From contig NZ_FWFT01000006.1 of assembly GCF_900172275.1 (NCBI RefSeq), positions 124,001 to 188,000 of the forward strand: a stretch of 64,000 bases of DNA, read 5' to 3'. The notes under the pieces were generated by a model, which did no database searches, was not told the DNA's origin, and was given only the letters and a program-made list of their open reading frames with translations. The position numbers and the translations under genes were made by a program. Positions 50,011 to 56,204 of this stretch are shown one piece after another (position 1 is the first letter of the stretch; every line of letters begins with the position of its first letter). The DNA is from Pseudooctadecabacter jejudonensis (GTDB taxonomy: Bacteria > Pseudomonadota > Alphaproteobacteria > Rhodobacterales > Rhodobacteraceae).

Positions 50011-50574
50011 TCAGTCGCTGCCGCGCGACAGGGCGGCCACGCCGGTGCGGGCCATTTCCACCAGCCCGATGGGGCGCATGAGGTCGGCAAAGGCGTCGAT
50101 TTTCTCGGACGTGCCGGTGATTTCAAAGGTGAAGCTGTCCAGCGTGCTGTCGACCACATTGGCGCGGAACACATCGGCCAGACGCAGGGCCTCAACGCGG
50201 TCCTCGCCTTTGCCGGCGACCTTGAACAGGGCCAGTTCCCGCTCCACCGCGCGGCCCTCGACGGTCAGGTCGTGAACCTCACGCACAGAAATGATGCGGC
50301 CCAGCTGGGCGGTGATCTGGTTGATGGTCTGCGGCGTGCCGGTTGTCACCACGGTGATGCGGCTCAGGTGGCCTGTGTGGTCAACCTCGGCCACCGTCAG
50401 GCTTTCGATGTTGTAGCCCCGCCCCGAAAACAGGCCGATGACACGGGCCAGAACACCTGGTTCGTTTTCCACGAGCACAGCCAGCGTGTGGCGTTCTTCG
50501 TGATCCGAAAAAGTCGGCCTTAGGTTGTAGGCGGAATGAGACGTGGCGCCTTGTTTGATATTGAGGGCAGACAT
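50011..50574 (-). CDS. ilvH: Acetolactate synthase small (regulatory) subunit
   Basis: 187 residues: N-terminal ACT domain (TLAVLVENEPGVLARVIGLF, SGRGYNIESLTVAEVDH) that binds valine, and the C-terminal IlvH domain (VDSTLDSFTFEITGTSEKID). It confers feedback inhibition on IlvI. Usually next to ilvI; here 1.56 kb and three genes lie between them. Confidence 0.95.
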   Translation of the reverse strand: MSALNIKQGATSHSAYNLRPTFSDHEERHTLAVLVENEPGVLARVIGLFSGRGYNIESLTVAEVDHTGHLSRITVVTTGTPQTINQITAQLGRIISVREVHDLTVEGRAVERELALFKVAGKGEDRVEALRLADVFRANVVDSTLDSFTFEITGTSEKIDAFADLMRPIGLVEMARTGVAALSRGSD

Positions 50575-52130: not shown

Positions 52131-53885
52131 TCAGACCAGAACAGACCCTTTCGCGTCGATGACGCCTTGGGTTTCGGCCTCGCCCAGAAGCATTTCGTTG
52201 TGGGCCTTGCCCGACGGGATCATCGGGAAGCAGTTTTCGTGCTTTTCCACCAGACAATCGAAAATGACCGGCCCGTCATGGTTCAGCATTTCCATGATCG
52301 CATCGTCCAGATCCGCAGGATCGGAACAGATGATGCCCTTGGCGCCAAACGCCTCGGCCAGTTTCACGAAATCCGGCAGGCTTTCGGACCAGCTGGAGGA
52401 ATAGCGTTCGCCGTGCAGCAATTCTTGCCACTGGCGCACCATGCCCAGACGTTCGTTGTTCAGGATGAACTGTTTGACGGGCAGGTTGTACTGCACCGCG
52501 GTGCCCATTTCCTGCATGTTCATCAGCCACGACGCCTCACCGGCGACATTGATGACCAGCGCGTCAGGGTGCGCCATTTGCACGCCAATGGACGCGGGGA
52601 AGCCGTAGCCCATCGTGCCCAATCCCCCCGATGTCATCCACTGGTTGGGGTTTTCAAAGCCAAGGTACTGCGCGGCCCACATCTGGTGCTGGCCGACCTC
52701 GGTGCAGATGTAGCGATCTTTACGGTCCTTCGTCAGCGCCTCCAGACGGGTCAGGGCGTGCTGGGGTTTGATGACCTTGCCTTCTTGCGTAAACGCCAGG
52801 CAGTTGACCTTTTTCCAGTCTGCAATCTGGTGTTTCCACTTGGTCACGGCCTCGGCATTCGTCTTGCGGCCGCGGGATTTCCAGACCTTCAGGATGTCTT
52901 CCAGGACGTGGCCCACATCGCCGATGATCGGAATATCCGTTTGGATGACCTTGTTGATGGAGGACGGATCGATGTCGATATGCGCCTTGGTGGAGCCGGG
53001 CGAGAACGCATCAAGACGCCCCGTGATCCGGTCGTCAAAGCGCGCGCCGATGTTGATCATCAGATCGCAATCGTGCATCGCCATGTTCGCCTCATACAGA
53101 CCATGCATCCCCAACATGCCGATCCAGTGTTCGCCTGACGCCGGATAGGCGCCCAGACCCATCAGGGTTGAGGTTATGGGAAAGCCCGTAGCCTCGACCA
53201 ATTCGCGCAGCAGTTGGGATGCTGCAGGGCCGGAGTTGATGACACCACCGCCGGTGTAAAACACAGGGCGCTTGGCCTTTTCCATCGCGGCGACCAGATC
53301 GGTGATGCCTTCGATGTCGCCTTTGACGTTGGGCTGATAGTGCGACTTTTGCGGCGCGGGCTTAGCGTAGGTGCCGTTGGCGAATTGAACATCCTTGGGG
53401 ATGTCGATCAGCACAGGGCCGGGGCGGCCGGATGTGGCCACGTGGAACGCCTCATGGATCGTGGGCGCCAGCGCGTCCGTTTCCTTGACCAGCCAGTTGT
53501 GTTTGGTGCAGGGCCGCGTGATGCCGACCGTGTCGGCCTCCTGAAAGGCATCGGATCCGATCATAAACGTCGGCACCTGTCCGGTGAAAACGATGATCGG
53601 GATGCTGTCCATCAGCGCATCCGTCAGGCCAGTGACCGCATTCGTGGCCCCGGGGCCGGATGTCACCAGCGCAACACCGGGTTTGCCGGTGGACCGTGCG
53701 TATCCTTCGGCGGCATGAACCGCTCCCTGTTCGTGACGCACCAGAATGTGCTTGATCGAGTTTTGCTGAAAAATCTCGTCATAAATCGGTAGGACGGCGC
53801 CACCGGGATATCCAAAGACTGTATCCACACCCTGATCGATCAGGGCTTGAACCACCATTTTTGCACCGGTCATTTGAGCTGACAT
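52131..53885 (-). CDS. ilvI: Acetolactate synthase large subunit
   Basis: 584 residues, complete. TPP-dependent condensation of two pyruvates (or pyruvate and 2-oxobutyrate), first common step of Val/Leu/Ile synthesis. Motifs: [35 protein letters not shown] (Glu of TPP activation), [21 protein letters not shown] and the late [19 protein letters not shown]. Preceded by a leader peptide and attenuator. The small subunit gene ilvH is 1.56 kb away. Confidence 0.95.
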
Positions 53886-53935
53886 TGTTTTATCCTCTTA
53901 GCAGCTGCCGTTATCGTGTCGTATCGCATAAAAAA

Positions 53936-53956
53936 GCCCCCGAAGATTTCGGAGGC
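53936..53956 (-). terminator. ilvI attenuator hairpin
   Basis: On the minus strand GCCTCCGAA/TTCGGGGGC, 9-bp stem with one G-T pair, loop ATC, then seven T/A-free T residues (53929-53935 read as T with one A). It lies 45 bp upstream of the ilvI ATG. An alternative stem (53990-53998 with 53955-53963) overlaps its first arm and is mutually exclusive. Confidence 0.75.
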
Positions 53957-53982
53957 GCATGGGAACCGGAATGGTCAACCTG

Positions 53983-54030
53983 TTACAGGCCCATGCGCGT
54001 GTCTCCTTCAAGTACAAGGACGATGTTCAT
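53983..54030 (-). CDS. ilv leader peptide
   Basis: 15 codons, MNIVLVLEGDTRMGL, on the minus strand. Codons 3-7 are Ile-Val-Leu-Val-Leu, the three amino acids that the pathway makes. AAAGGAGAG lies before the ATG. It ends 26 bp before the attenuator. Stalling at codons 3-7 would leave the antiterminator arm at 53990-53998 (codons 11-14) free to pair with 53955-53963. Confidence 0.75.
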   Translation of the reverse strand: MNIVLVLEGDTRMGL

Positions 54031-54057
54031 CCGAGGCTCTCCTTTGTGCGTGCTGGA

Positions 54058-54086
54058 TGTATGCCCAAGCGGGGCAGGACGGTCAA
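54058..54086 (-). promoter_or_regulatory. Likely ilvI promoter
   Basis: On the minus strand TTGACC, 17 bp, CATACA, about 28 bp upstream of the leader peptide ATG. The -10 is weak; the -35 and spacing are good. The 53886-54293 gap holds this, the leader/attenuator and the PhoB sites for the divergent phosphatase. Confidence 0.45.
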
Positions 54087-54293: not shown

Positions 54294-56204
54294 ATGAAAC
54301 ACATCCAGACCCCCGCCACGCCCCAAAGCCAAGCAGACGCCATGGACACCATGAGCTGGGATGACTGGGATGAACTGCAACGTCCTACACCTGAAATGAC
54401 CGAATTTGACGGTGTCGTGGCCTCTGCCATGTCGCGCCGCGGCTTTCTGGGCCGCGTGCTTGCGATGGGGTCGGGCGCTGCGGTGATGGGCGCGGGCGTG
54501 TTCAAGGGCAGCACGGCGTTGGCGGCCTCCGACCGCTTTGCCTTCGACGCCATTCCGATTGCCACCGATTTCACCATCCACGTGCCTGAGGGGTATTCCT
54601 GGGCGCCTGTGGCCAAATGGGGCGACCCGTTGTTCTCCGACGCGCCTGCCTTTGACCCTGTCAGCGGTGTCACAACCGAAGGCCAGGCGCGCGCCTTTGG
54701 CGAAAACACCGACGGGATGGAGCTGTTTAACATCGGCGGTCGTCAGGTCATCGCGGTGAACCACGAATACGCCAACACCCGCACCAACCTGGCCCGCTCG
54801 GGCGGTGACGTGACCTCGCTGGACGATGTGCAGCTGTTGCAAAACGCCCAAGGCGTGGCGGTGTTTGAGGTGGAAGAGGCCGAGGACGGCTGGCGCATCG
54901 TGCTCGACAGTGACCTCAACCGCCGCATCACCCATCAGACGCCGATGACCCTGACAGGGCCCGCCGCAGGGCACGACCTGCTCAAGACTGCGGCCGATCC
55001 TGAGGGGCGGACGGTGCTGGGCACGATGAACAACTGCGGCGCAGGCAAAACGCCGTGGGGCACCTACCTGACTTGCGAAGAGAACTTCAACGGCTACTTC
55101 GGATCCACCGATCAAGCGCTTGAACTGTCTGCAGAGTTTGGCCGCTACGGCATCGGTCTGGAAGGGCGCTACGCCTATGAAACCTATGACGCGCGGTTCG
55201 ATCTGTCCCAAAACATCAATGAGCCGAACCGCTTTGGCTATATCGTGGAAATCGATCCCGCCGATCCGACCTCAACCCCGATGAAACGCACCGCTTTGGG
55301 CCGGTTCAAACACGAAAACGCCGCCTGTGCCGTGGCCCCTGATGGGCGCGTGGTTGTCTATCTGGGCGACGATGAACGCGGTGAATACTTGTATAAATAT
55401 GTCTCTGATGGGGTCTATACGCCGGGCGGCGATACCTCTGATCTGTTGGTCGAAGGCCAGCTTTATGCGGCCAAGTTCACCGACGATGGCCGTGGCGAAT
55501 GGATAGCCCTGACGCCAGAGGCCACAGGCATGGACGCCGCAGAGATCGCCATTCACACACGGCTGGCGGCCTCCGCCGTAGGTGCCACCACCATGGACCG
55601 CCCCGAATGGGTCGCCGTGAACCCGGTCGCTGTGGAAGGCTACTGCGCGTTGACCAACAACAAAAACCGTGCCGTCAAACCCAACGCCGGTGGGGATGAG
55701 ACACCCGTGAACGGCCCCAACCCAAGGGCCGAAAACAAATACGGCCAGATCGTGCGCTGGTATCCCGAAAACGACGACCATGCGGCTGTCGATTTCACAT
55801 GGGATCTGTACGTCATGGCCGGCAATCCCGAGGTCCACGACGACGCCTACGCCGGATCGGACAACGTCCATAAGGGCAACATGTTCAACAGCCCCGACGG
55901 GATGATGTTCGACAGCGCAGGTCTGCTGTGGATCCAGACCGATGGGGACGACAGCAACGAAGACGGCTTTGCGGGCATGGGAAACAACCAGATGCTTGTT
56001 GGCGATCCGGTCAGCGGTGAAATCCGCCGCTTTATGACTGGCCCCAAAGGGTCGGAAGTTACGGGCATCACCTGGTCATCCGACCGCCGCACGGCCTTTG
56101 TTGGCATCCAGCACCCCAAAGCACCGTTCCCCGATGGCGAAGGCTCTCTCGCCCGTTCGACCATCGTGGCGATCAAGCGGGATGACAACGCCGTCATCGG
56201 CTAG
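54294..56204 (+). CDS. phoX: PhoX-family alkaline phosphatase (DUF839), Tat-exported
   Basis: 636 residues. Twin-arginine signal SRRGFLG at residues 47-53 with a hydrophobic stretch (VLAMGSGAAVMGAGVF) and cleavage near ALAASD, so exported folded, as expected for a Ca/Fe cofactor enzyme. Motifs NHEYANTRTNL, GTMNNCGAGKTPWGTYLTCE, ENFNGYFG, NKNRAVKPNAGG and CNSPDG-type region NSPDGMMFD match PhoX. Releases phosphate from organic esters. Six PhoB half-sites upstream make it a Pho regulon gene. Terminator at 56222. Confidence 0.92.
   Translation: MKHIQTPATPQSQADAMDTMSWDDWDELQRPTPEMTEFDGVVASAMSRRGFLGRVLAMGSGAAVMGAGVFKGSTALAASDRFAFDAIPIATDFTIHVPEGYSWAPVAKWGDPLFSDAPAFDPVSGVTTEGQARAFGENTDGMELFNIGGRQVIAVNHEYANTRTNLARSGGDVTSLDDVQLLQNAQGVAVFEVEEAEDGWRIVLDSDLNRRITHQTPMTLTGPAAGHDLLKTAADPEGRTVLGTMNNCGAGKTPWGTYLTCEENFNGYFGSTDQALELSAEFGRYGIGLEGRYAYETYDARFDLSQNINEPNRFGYIVEIDPADPTSTPMKRTALGRFKHENAACAVAPDGRVVVYLGDDERGEYLYKYVSDGVYTPGGDTSDLLVEGQLYAAKFTDDGRGEWIALTPEATGMDAAEIAIHTRLAASAVGATTMDRPEWVAVNPVAVEGYCALTNNKNRAVKPNAGGDETPVNGPNPRAENKYGQIVRWYPENDDHAAVDFTWDLYVMAGNPEVHDDAYAGSDNVHKGNMFNSPDGMMFDSAGLLWIQTDGDDSNEDGFAGMGNNQMLVGDPVSGEIRRFMTGPKGSEVTGITWSSDRRTAFVGIQHPKAPFPDGEGSLARSTIVAIKRDDNAVIG

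Follow-up and report, generated by a model that had tools for sequence, protein, structure and literature searches.

A conserved leader-peptide element upstream of ilvI in Rhodobacterales, very probably a ribosome-mediated transcription attenuator

The leuL and thrL elements of Escherichia coli are attenuators. In alphaproteobacteria, ilvIH attenuators were reportedly predicted by Vitreschak et al. (2004, FEMS Microbiol Lett 234:357). Attenuation has been described as the main mode of branched-chain amino acid control in Gram-negative bacteria (PMC6123439, in excerpt), and attenuation of ilvBN/ilvIH is in print for Caulobacter (PMC4117421, in excerpt), in agreement with an earlier note on the DNA studied here, which had stated that ilv attenuators are known in proteobacteria. 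Among the matches listed by a literature search, with subscription papers mostly outside its scope, nothing was found on the Rhodobacterales form or on an attenuator of Bcr/CflA transporters. The earlier note had placed an attenuator with an Ile-Val-Leu leader peptide before ilvI on the minus strand of the window, by which is meant the whole 64,000-nucleotide stretch of Pseudooctadecabacter jejudonensis DNA that was analyzed. The element is very probably a ribosome-mediated transcription attenuator controlling ilvI.

The gene that this element precedes was correctly named as ilvI, since it encodes the acetolactate synthase large subunit by NCBIfam NF006581 (584 aa; 52131..53885, minus strand; 1122.3 bits against a cut-off of 974). 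The small subunit (ilvH/ilvN) is encoded downstream of ilvI and not adjacent to it, at 50011..50574 on the minus strand (NCBIfam NF008864, 221.6 bits against a cut-off of 119), and a divergent ORF of 636 aa begins at 54294, upstream of the leader. When the minus strand was read directly, the leader, the Shine-Dalgarno sequence, both pairing arms and the terminator were all found where the earlier note had put them. The Shine-Dalgarno sequence AAAGGAG (54039..54045) lies 8 nt 5′ of the leader ATG, and the leader ORF, MNIVLVLEGDTRMGL, has 15 codons plus TAA, from the ATG at 54030 to the TAA at 53983; its reading rests on the relatives and the frame control given below. The leader overlaps the first antiterminator arm, as claimed: arm 1, GCGCATGGG (53990..53998), is leader nt 33-41 within codons 11-14, and it pairs with arm 2, CCCATGCGC (53955..53963), as a 9-bp hairpin, the putative antiterminator. 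The intrinsic terminator, GCCTCCGAA-ATC-TTCGGGGGC (53936..53956), consists of a 9-bp stem and a 3-nt loop followed by a T6 tract (53930..53935), and it shares exactly 2 nt with arm 2, the number given beforehand. Directly 3′ of the T tract, at 53925-53929, ATGCG repeats a part of arm 2; at the corresponding place ATGCG stands in 39/91 distinct relatives and ATG in 58/91. The promoter proposed for the leader stands in part, because a −35-like box, TTGACC (54081..54086), is clear on direct reading and TTGAC occurs within 20-110 nt 5′ of all 93 leaders collected from relatives, but a promoter scan gave no full sigma-70 consensus. A terminator scan recovered the terminator at 53936-53956 together with a weaker 6-bp site at 54018-54032 inside the leader, two sites in total against a shuffle mean of 0.5. 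The RNA fold of the element is better than shuffles (z −2.73; 3/200 shuffles equally good), and at equilibrium the exclusion of the terminator by the antiterminator is just partial. The single-sequence fold pairs the Shine-Dalgarno region with the 3′ side of the terminator. With Rfam 15 at gathering cut-offs, the sole match of the window is a tRNA elsewhere in it.

Comparison of the leader in relatives, set beforehand as one analysis that could refute the attenuator reading, found the control codons conserved. IlvI loci numbered 110; 30 came from 31 whole genomes, and the other 80 were the best among 590 named contigs. Twelve loci with IlvI below 80% identity (L019-L030) were left out, of which L019-L026 lacked a leader of this kind on inspection, as were L017 and L064, which are cut by contig ends. 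The leader is present in 93 of the remaining 96 loci, those in which IlvI identity reaches 80% or more and upstream DNA is available, the named loci among them being the best 80 of 590; the three without it are L016, L065 and L067. Dropping the duplicates L007, L031, L032 and L088 left 89 distinct leaders in alignment A1, the leader picks for L102, L066 and L061 having been set by hand. A length of 15 codons was found in 88/92 leaders first picked. Among the 86 distinct 15-codon frames, 77 have nothing but Ile, Leu or Val at codons 4-8, and 84 have at least four such codons out of the five (these frames include L061, whose stop is at codon 11), whereas in the +1 and +2 frames 0/86 have all five and 0/86 reach four, which supports the Ile-Val-Leu reading. 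The stretch of codons 4-8 occurs in 61 different nucleotide versions among the 86 frames, and all three amino acids lie within codons 3-9 in 76/86; the runs are broken in L066 and L231. The position of the control codons had been given correctly for the window, where codons 3-7 read ATC GTC CTT GTA CTT, but in relatives the run comprises codons 4-8, and the Glu at codon 8 of the window leader is found in 1/86 of the frames. An SD-like 4-mer precedes 92/93 leaders, and a run of 5-8 T stands at the terminator in 93/93 loci. The Arg-Met-Gly tail of the leader is nearly invariant (84 to 85/86 for each residue), as would be expected if CGCATGGG serves as an RNA arm too. Leaders of 9-13 codons, with a stop preceding arm 1, occur in genus g21 (L246, L247, L253). 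The stop codon of these leaders and of L061 lies just before arm 1, not after it, and a ribosome at that stop would still mask the arm.

Codon choice in the control stretch differs from that in the ilvI gene which follows at each locus: Leu is CTA in 67/106 control codons versus 89/4038 Leu codons of ilvI, and Val is GTA in 113/236 versus 194/3785. In the Salmonella leu leader the control codon is CUA, and its replacement reduced sensitivity, according to work cited in PMC1183508; as excerpted, that paper takes selective tRNA charging, not rarity, to account for control codons. The Gly at codon 9, which belongs to no product of the pathway, is GGA in 59/67 leaders versus 279/4971 in ilvI, where GGA is rare. 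Since this codon shares the A-ending bias, tRNA charging is not the sole possible cause, and a part of the bias, that at codon 9 included, may come from constraint on the RNA.

The antiterminator helix in A1 (89 leaders) has 98.4% of its cells paired versus 17-66% with partners slid by 1-3 columns, and the terminator helix 99.0% versus 38-71%. Covarying stems, to which the earlier note had looked, were found for the terminator, whose pairing is kept through double changes at 4/7 pairs in A1, but less so for the antiterminator, which has few double changes and a covariation score of 0.031, below those of the slides by −3, −2, −1 and +2. These double changes are few because the antiterminator hardly varies; A1 contains four such cells at two pairs, one in L045 and three in the Planktomarina-like L087 and L109, where the alignment does not give the likely pairing. 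The change in L045 is compensatory (GCACATGGG/CCCATGTGC), and a clear compensatory change is present in L230, a more diverged member (GTGCATGGG/CCCATGCAC). In a scripted wider alignment of 28 diverged elements, the four outer antiterminator pairs are kept in 27, 27, 28 and 28 of them, and the same pairs are kept in 15/15 transporter-linked elements (L207, being partial, was left out of the latter), whereas the innermost pair fails in 18/28 diverged and 11/15 transporter-linked elements. Conservation therefore sits on the outer pairs, including those that share terminator bases; arm 2's share of it is partly forced by the terminator, and arm 1's is not. The overlap between antiterminator and terminator is 2 nt in 67/93 and 3 nt in 21/93 loci, or 2-3 nt in 88/93, and it is zero in the diverged copies L109, L164, L167, L168 and L213, and by eye also in L214. 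For L149 and L151 the automatic search chose a wrong terminator, and their stems were read by eye.

From the parts observed, their conservation, the identity of the codons, the pairing kept by relatives and the geometry that follows when a ribosome footprint is assumed, a course of events can be proposed in which the transcription start, actual termination, read-through and the position of the ribosome are predictions. Transcription would begin upstream of the leader, and a ribosome following RNA polymerase would translate the 15 codons. If charged Ile, Val and Leu tRNAs were ample, this ribosome would get to the stop codon and mask arm 1, leaving arm 2 unpaired; the terminator could then close down to the base beside the T tract, and transcription would end 5′ of ilvI. 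If charging fell, the ribosome would stall in codons 3-7 with its leading edge just short of arm 1, which would pair with arm 2 and thereby remove the last two terminator base pairs next to the T tract, allowing read-through into ilvI. To model the geometry, the leading edge was placed at the customary, assumed distance of 16 nt, counted from where the P-site codon begins (nt 3c+11). By this measure of geometry alone, arm 1 stays accessible while the A-site codon is 7 or lower, and once codon 8 is reached it is masked, the stop included, which matches a stall in window control codons 3-7. The switching step is what we infer, given an overlap of just 2-3 nt that is absent in some diverged copies, and losing the two pairs at the base of the stem, beside the T tract, would presumably suffice to prevent termination. 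An equilibrium model assigns these two pairs a median probability of 0.83 when arm 1 is free (A-site codon 7) and of 0.997 when it is masked, a difference of about 2.6 kcal/mol. The same model shows no switch for E. coli leuL and thrL (0.99 throughout), so that equilibrium folding is uninformative as proof of a switch and kinetics must decide in both systems.

The distribution of the element was followed with a covariance model, R1, searched at E ≤ 0.1 in 292 genomes of the order, of which 265 have a match, representing 108/112 genera. The best match was read in 74 of the 265 genomes (the own genome, 30 with best matches, 28 with weak ones and 15 others), and it lies within 150 nt 5′ of ilvI on the same strand in 72/74; the two exceptions are G226 (L242), where it precedes a Bcr/CflA-like gene, and G299 (L255), where it precedes neither. 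The 28 weak ones, and 12 of the 15 others, belong to sets of 28 and 16 genomes chosen for extra or weak R1 matches. Weak matches at loci that lack both ilvI and the transporter were set aside (L113-L117, L255, L257, L258, L265, L266), as were L183, L184 and L186-L194, which have the look of chance terminators and likewise lack both genes. A second match in the own genome (contig G000:C15, E 0.0046; L112, L148) was also rejected, as a chance match in a phiX174 contig; the contig is 5513 nt long, the part of it that was searched (1500 nt) matches phiX174-type phage records with 100% identity, and in all likelihood it is a spike-in from sequencing that was never removed from the assembly. Of the 27 genomes negative for R1, the 20 listed ones were followed, and all 20 have ilvI. 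A diverged Ile/Leu/Val leader with a terminator, whose sequence differs, was found in six of them (L149, L151, L164, L165, L167, L168), and by eye no recognizable leader in 14, namely 13 of genus g19 and G259. Genus g19 (G036, G052, G078, G084 and nine others), which belongs to the window's family, has thus kept ilvI and apparently lost the switch.

In a sample from the whole class, R1 at E ≤ 0.01 matched 25/385 genomes, of which 5 belong to the window's family and 20 do not. The 11 matches with E ≤ 1e-4 outside the family come from 10 families, and 11/11 stand before a Bcr/CflA-like MFS gene, which places transporter-linked elements in 11/380 sampled class genomes outside the window's family; four of the nine weaker matches were fetched (L209-L212) and rejected, since they look like chance terminators with no ilvI or transporter nearby. 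Within the Rhodobacterales, G279, G059, G195 and G226 likewise have copies ahead of such a gene, and the transporter-linked elements together are L198-L208, L181, L182, L185, L242 and L213. When ten of the transporter proteins were scanned (seven from these class genomes and three from Rhodobacterales), TIGR00710 was the best family for 10/10 and above the cut-off for 8/10; the remaining ones were assigned by tblastn similarity of 52-59%. Most of these leaders are Val-rich, such as MTVTTVVVGAWRLDR and MTVKFVVVVSKRCMVR, but in those of L185, L206, L208 and L182 Val residues never stand side by side. A model R2, built from 14 transporter-linked elements (alignment A2; four from the window's family), matches the window's ilvI element at 76.4 bits (E 1.1e-20), a match that is not independent, as the members of R2 had been found with R1; the RNAalifold structure of R2 misses the antiterminator, which makes R2 mainly a sequence model. 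A search with R2 gave no transporter-linked genome beyond the 11 outside the family. Common origin is better supported by the R1 E-values of 1e-5 to 1e-15 of the transporter-linked matches in distant genomes, together with the one kind of gene behind them, and kinship of the ilvI attenuator with the attenuator of an efflux-type transporter is likely. In the own genome, no such leader was seen by eye in the 300 nt upstream of the Bcr/CflA genes (L227, L228).

An RNA of about 100 nt formed by termination could also act mainly in trans, as an sRNA or as a source of leader peptide, with cis control of ilvI being secondary, and this would be compatible with the attenuator. A comparable case is that of rnTrpL and peTrpL in Sinorhizobium, which are described as a functional RNA and a functional peptide (PMC10117765; PMC7298713, both in excerpt), and the window matches Rfam RF02502, Atu_C8, over its full length, at 23.0 bits and E 0.019, short of the gathering cut-off of 50 bits. 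That family is filed as 'Rhizobiales sRNA', and its consensus may be read as a short Ile/Val leader, a hairpin GCGCAUGGG/CCCAUGCGC and a terminator. Among 190 class genomes nine match Atu_C8 at E ≤ 0.01, one of them (G413, L213) over the cut-off; there a Bcr/CflA-like gene follows the leader MQVSVVVGRRMGKAA, which could also begin further upstream in frame. In G494 (L214) a match below the cut-off (32 bits) has the 15-codon leader MSLLIVPCAPNEGLA and is followed by ilvI after about 90 nt, and the other ten Atu_C8 match loci have neither ilvI nor a Bcr/CflA-like gene. When 17 related loci, some of them linked to the transporter, were searched against Rfam at E ≤ 0.5, Atu_C8 was not matched and the sole match was an unrelated one, which counts against kinship. 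Atu_C8 presumably stems from the Agrobacterium sRNA work of Wilms et al. In a proposal by Lee et al., several Agrobacterium sRNAs of Wilms et al. are regarded as parts of 5′ UTRs, and C8 is not named in the excerpted text (PMC3738593). The Atu_C8 'sRNA' may be open to re-reading as an attenuator leader. For the element studied here a mainly trans-acting role is highly improbable, because it stands directly 5′ of ilvI in nearly all genomes read, with codons that fit the product of that gene, and because in-frame Ile/Leu/Val codons kept in so many nucleotide versions argue for a cis sensor.

The transporter-linked relatives bring in another reading, likewise compatible with the attenuator, by which the element senses drugs or stress and any slowing of the ribosome in the leader releases the gene. 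Amino acid limitation is no obvious signal before Bcr/CflA efflux-type transporters, but the control codons at ilvI match the products of its pathway, and for ilvI this reading is a shade less probable still than a trans-acting RNA. That nothing more than a terminator of the ordinary kind and a short ORF arisen by chance lies 5′ of ilvI, with no regulation, scarcely deserves credence: terminators of such form are common, as the weak R1 matches L183, L184, L186-L194 and L209-L212 illustrate, but the conserved 15-codon frame, the control codons, the pairing and the promoter box would remain unaccounted for, and in our view the frame control refutes it. Ribosome-mediated attenuation of ilvI is accordingly preferred. 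A wider scheme can be offered tentatively, as a possibility that is rather less likely than its contrary: one homologous attenuator family would serve ilvI in Rhodobacterales and, by way of leaders that are mostly Val-rich, a Bcr/CflA transporter in other alphaproteobacteria, the transporter handling a branched-chain amino acid or a derivative, or the leader gauging ribosome slowing in general and having been re-tuned to amino acids at ilvI, with minimal capture of 2-3 pairs in the ilvI form, and with Atu_C8 as the terminated product of a sister leader. The link suggests that the transporter, filed as multidrug efflux, responds to a physiological signal.

Set against the described systems, the element resembles E. 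coli leuL and thrL in having a leader peptide with control codons, an antiterminator (here putative) and a terminator. It differs from them in size, their leaders being 28 and 21 codons long versus 15 in the window, and in the overlap of the two structures, which measures 9 and 10 nt in E. coli versus 2 in the window when one crude stem search is applied to all of them. An overlap of 2-3 nt makes it a lean natural case for studying the smallest capture of a terminator stem that would block termination. In class, gene and mechanism it agrees with the attenuators reportedly predicted by Vitreschak et al. in 2004. The Caulobacter crescentus ilvBN/ilvIH attenuator is similar as well, belonging to an alphaproteobacterium and to the same gene, with tandem Ile and Val codons, a terminator, and read-through upon low charging (Schrader 2014, PMC4117421, in excerpt, citing Tarleton 1994), a likeness drawn from the published description. 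The Rhodobacterales form provides the Roseobacter group with an order-wide cis element for branched-chain amino acid control that has no Rfam 15 match at cut-offs, and it is very probably a conserved ilvI attenuator across the order, a newly described member of an already known mechanism.
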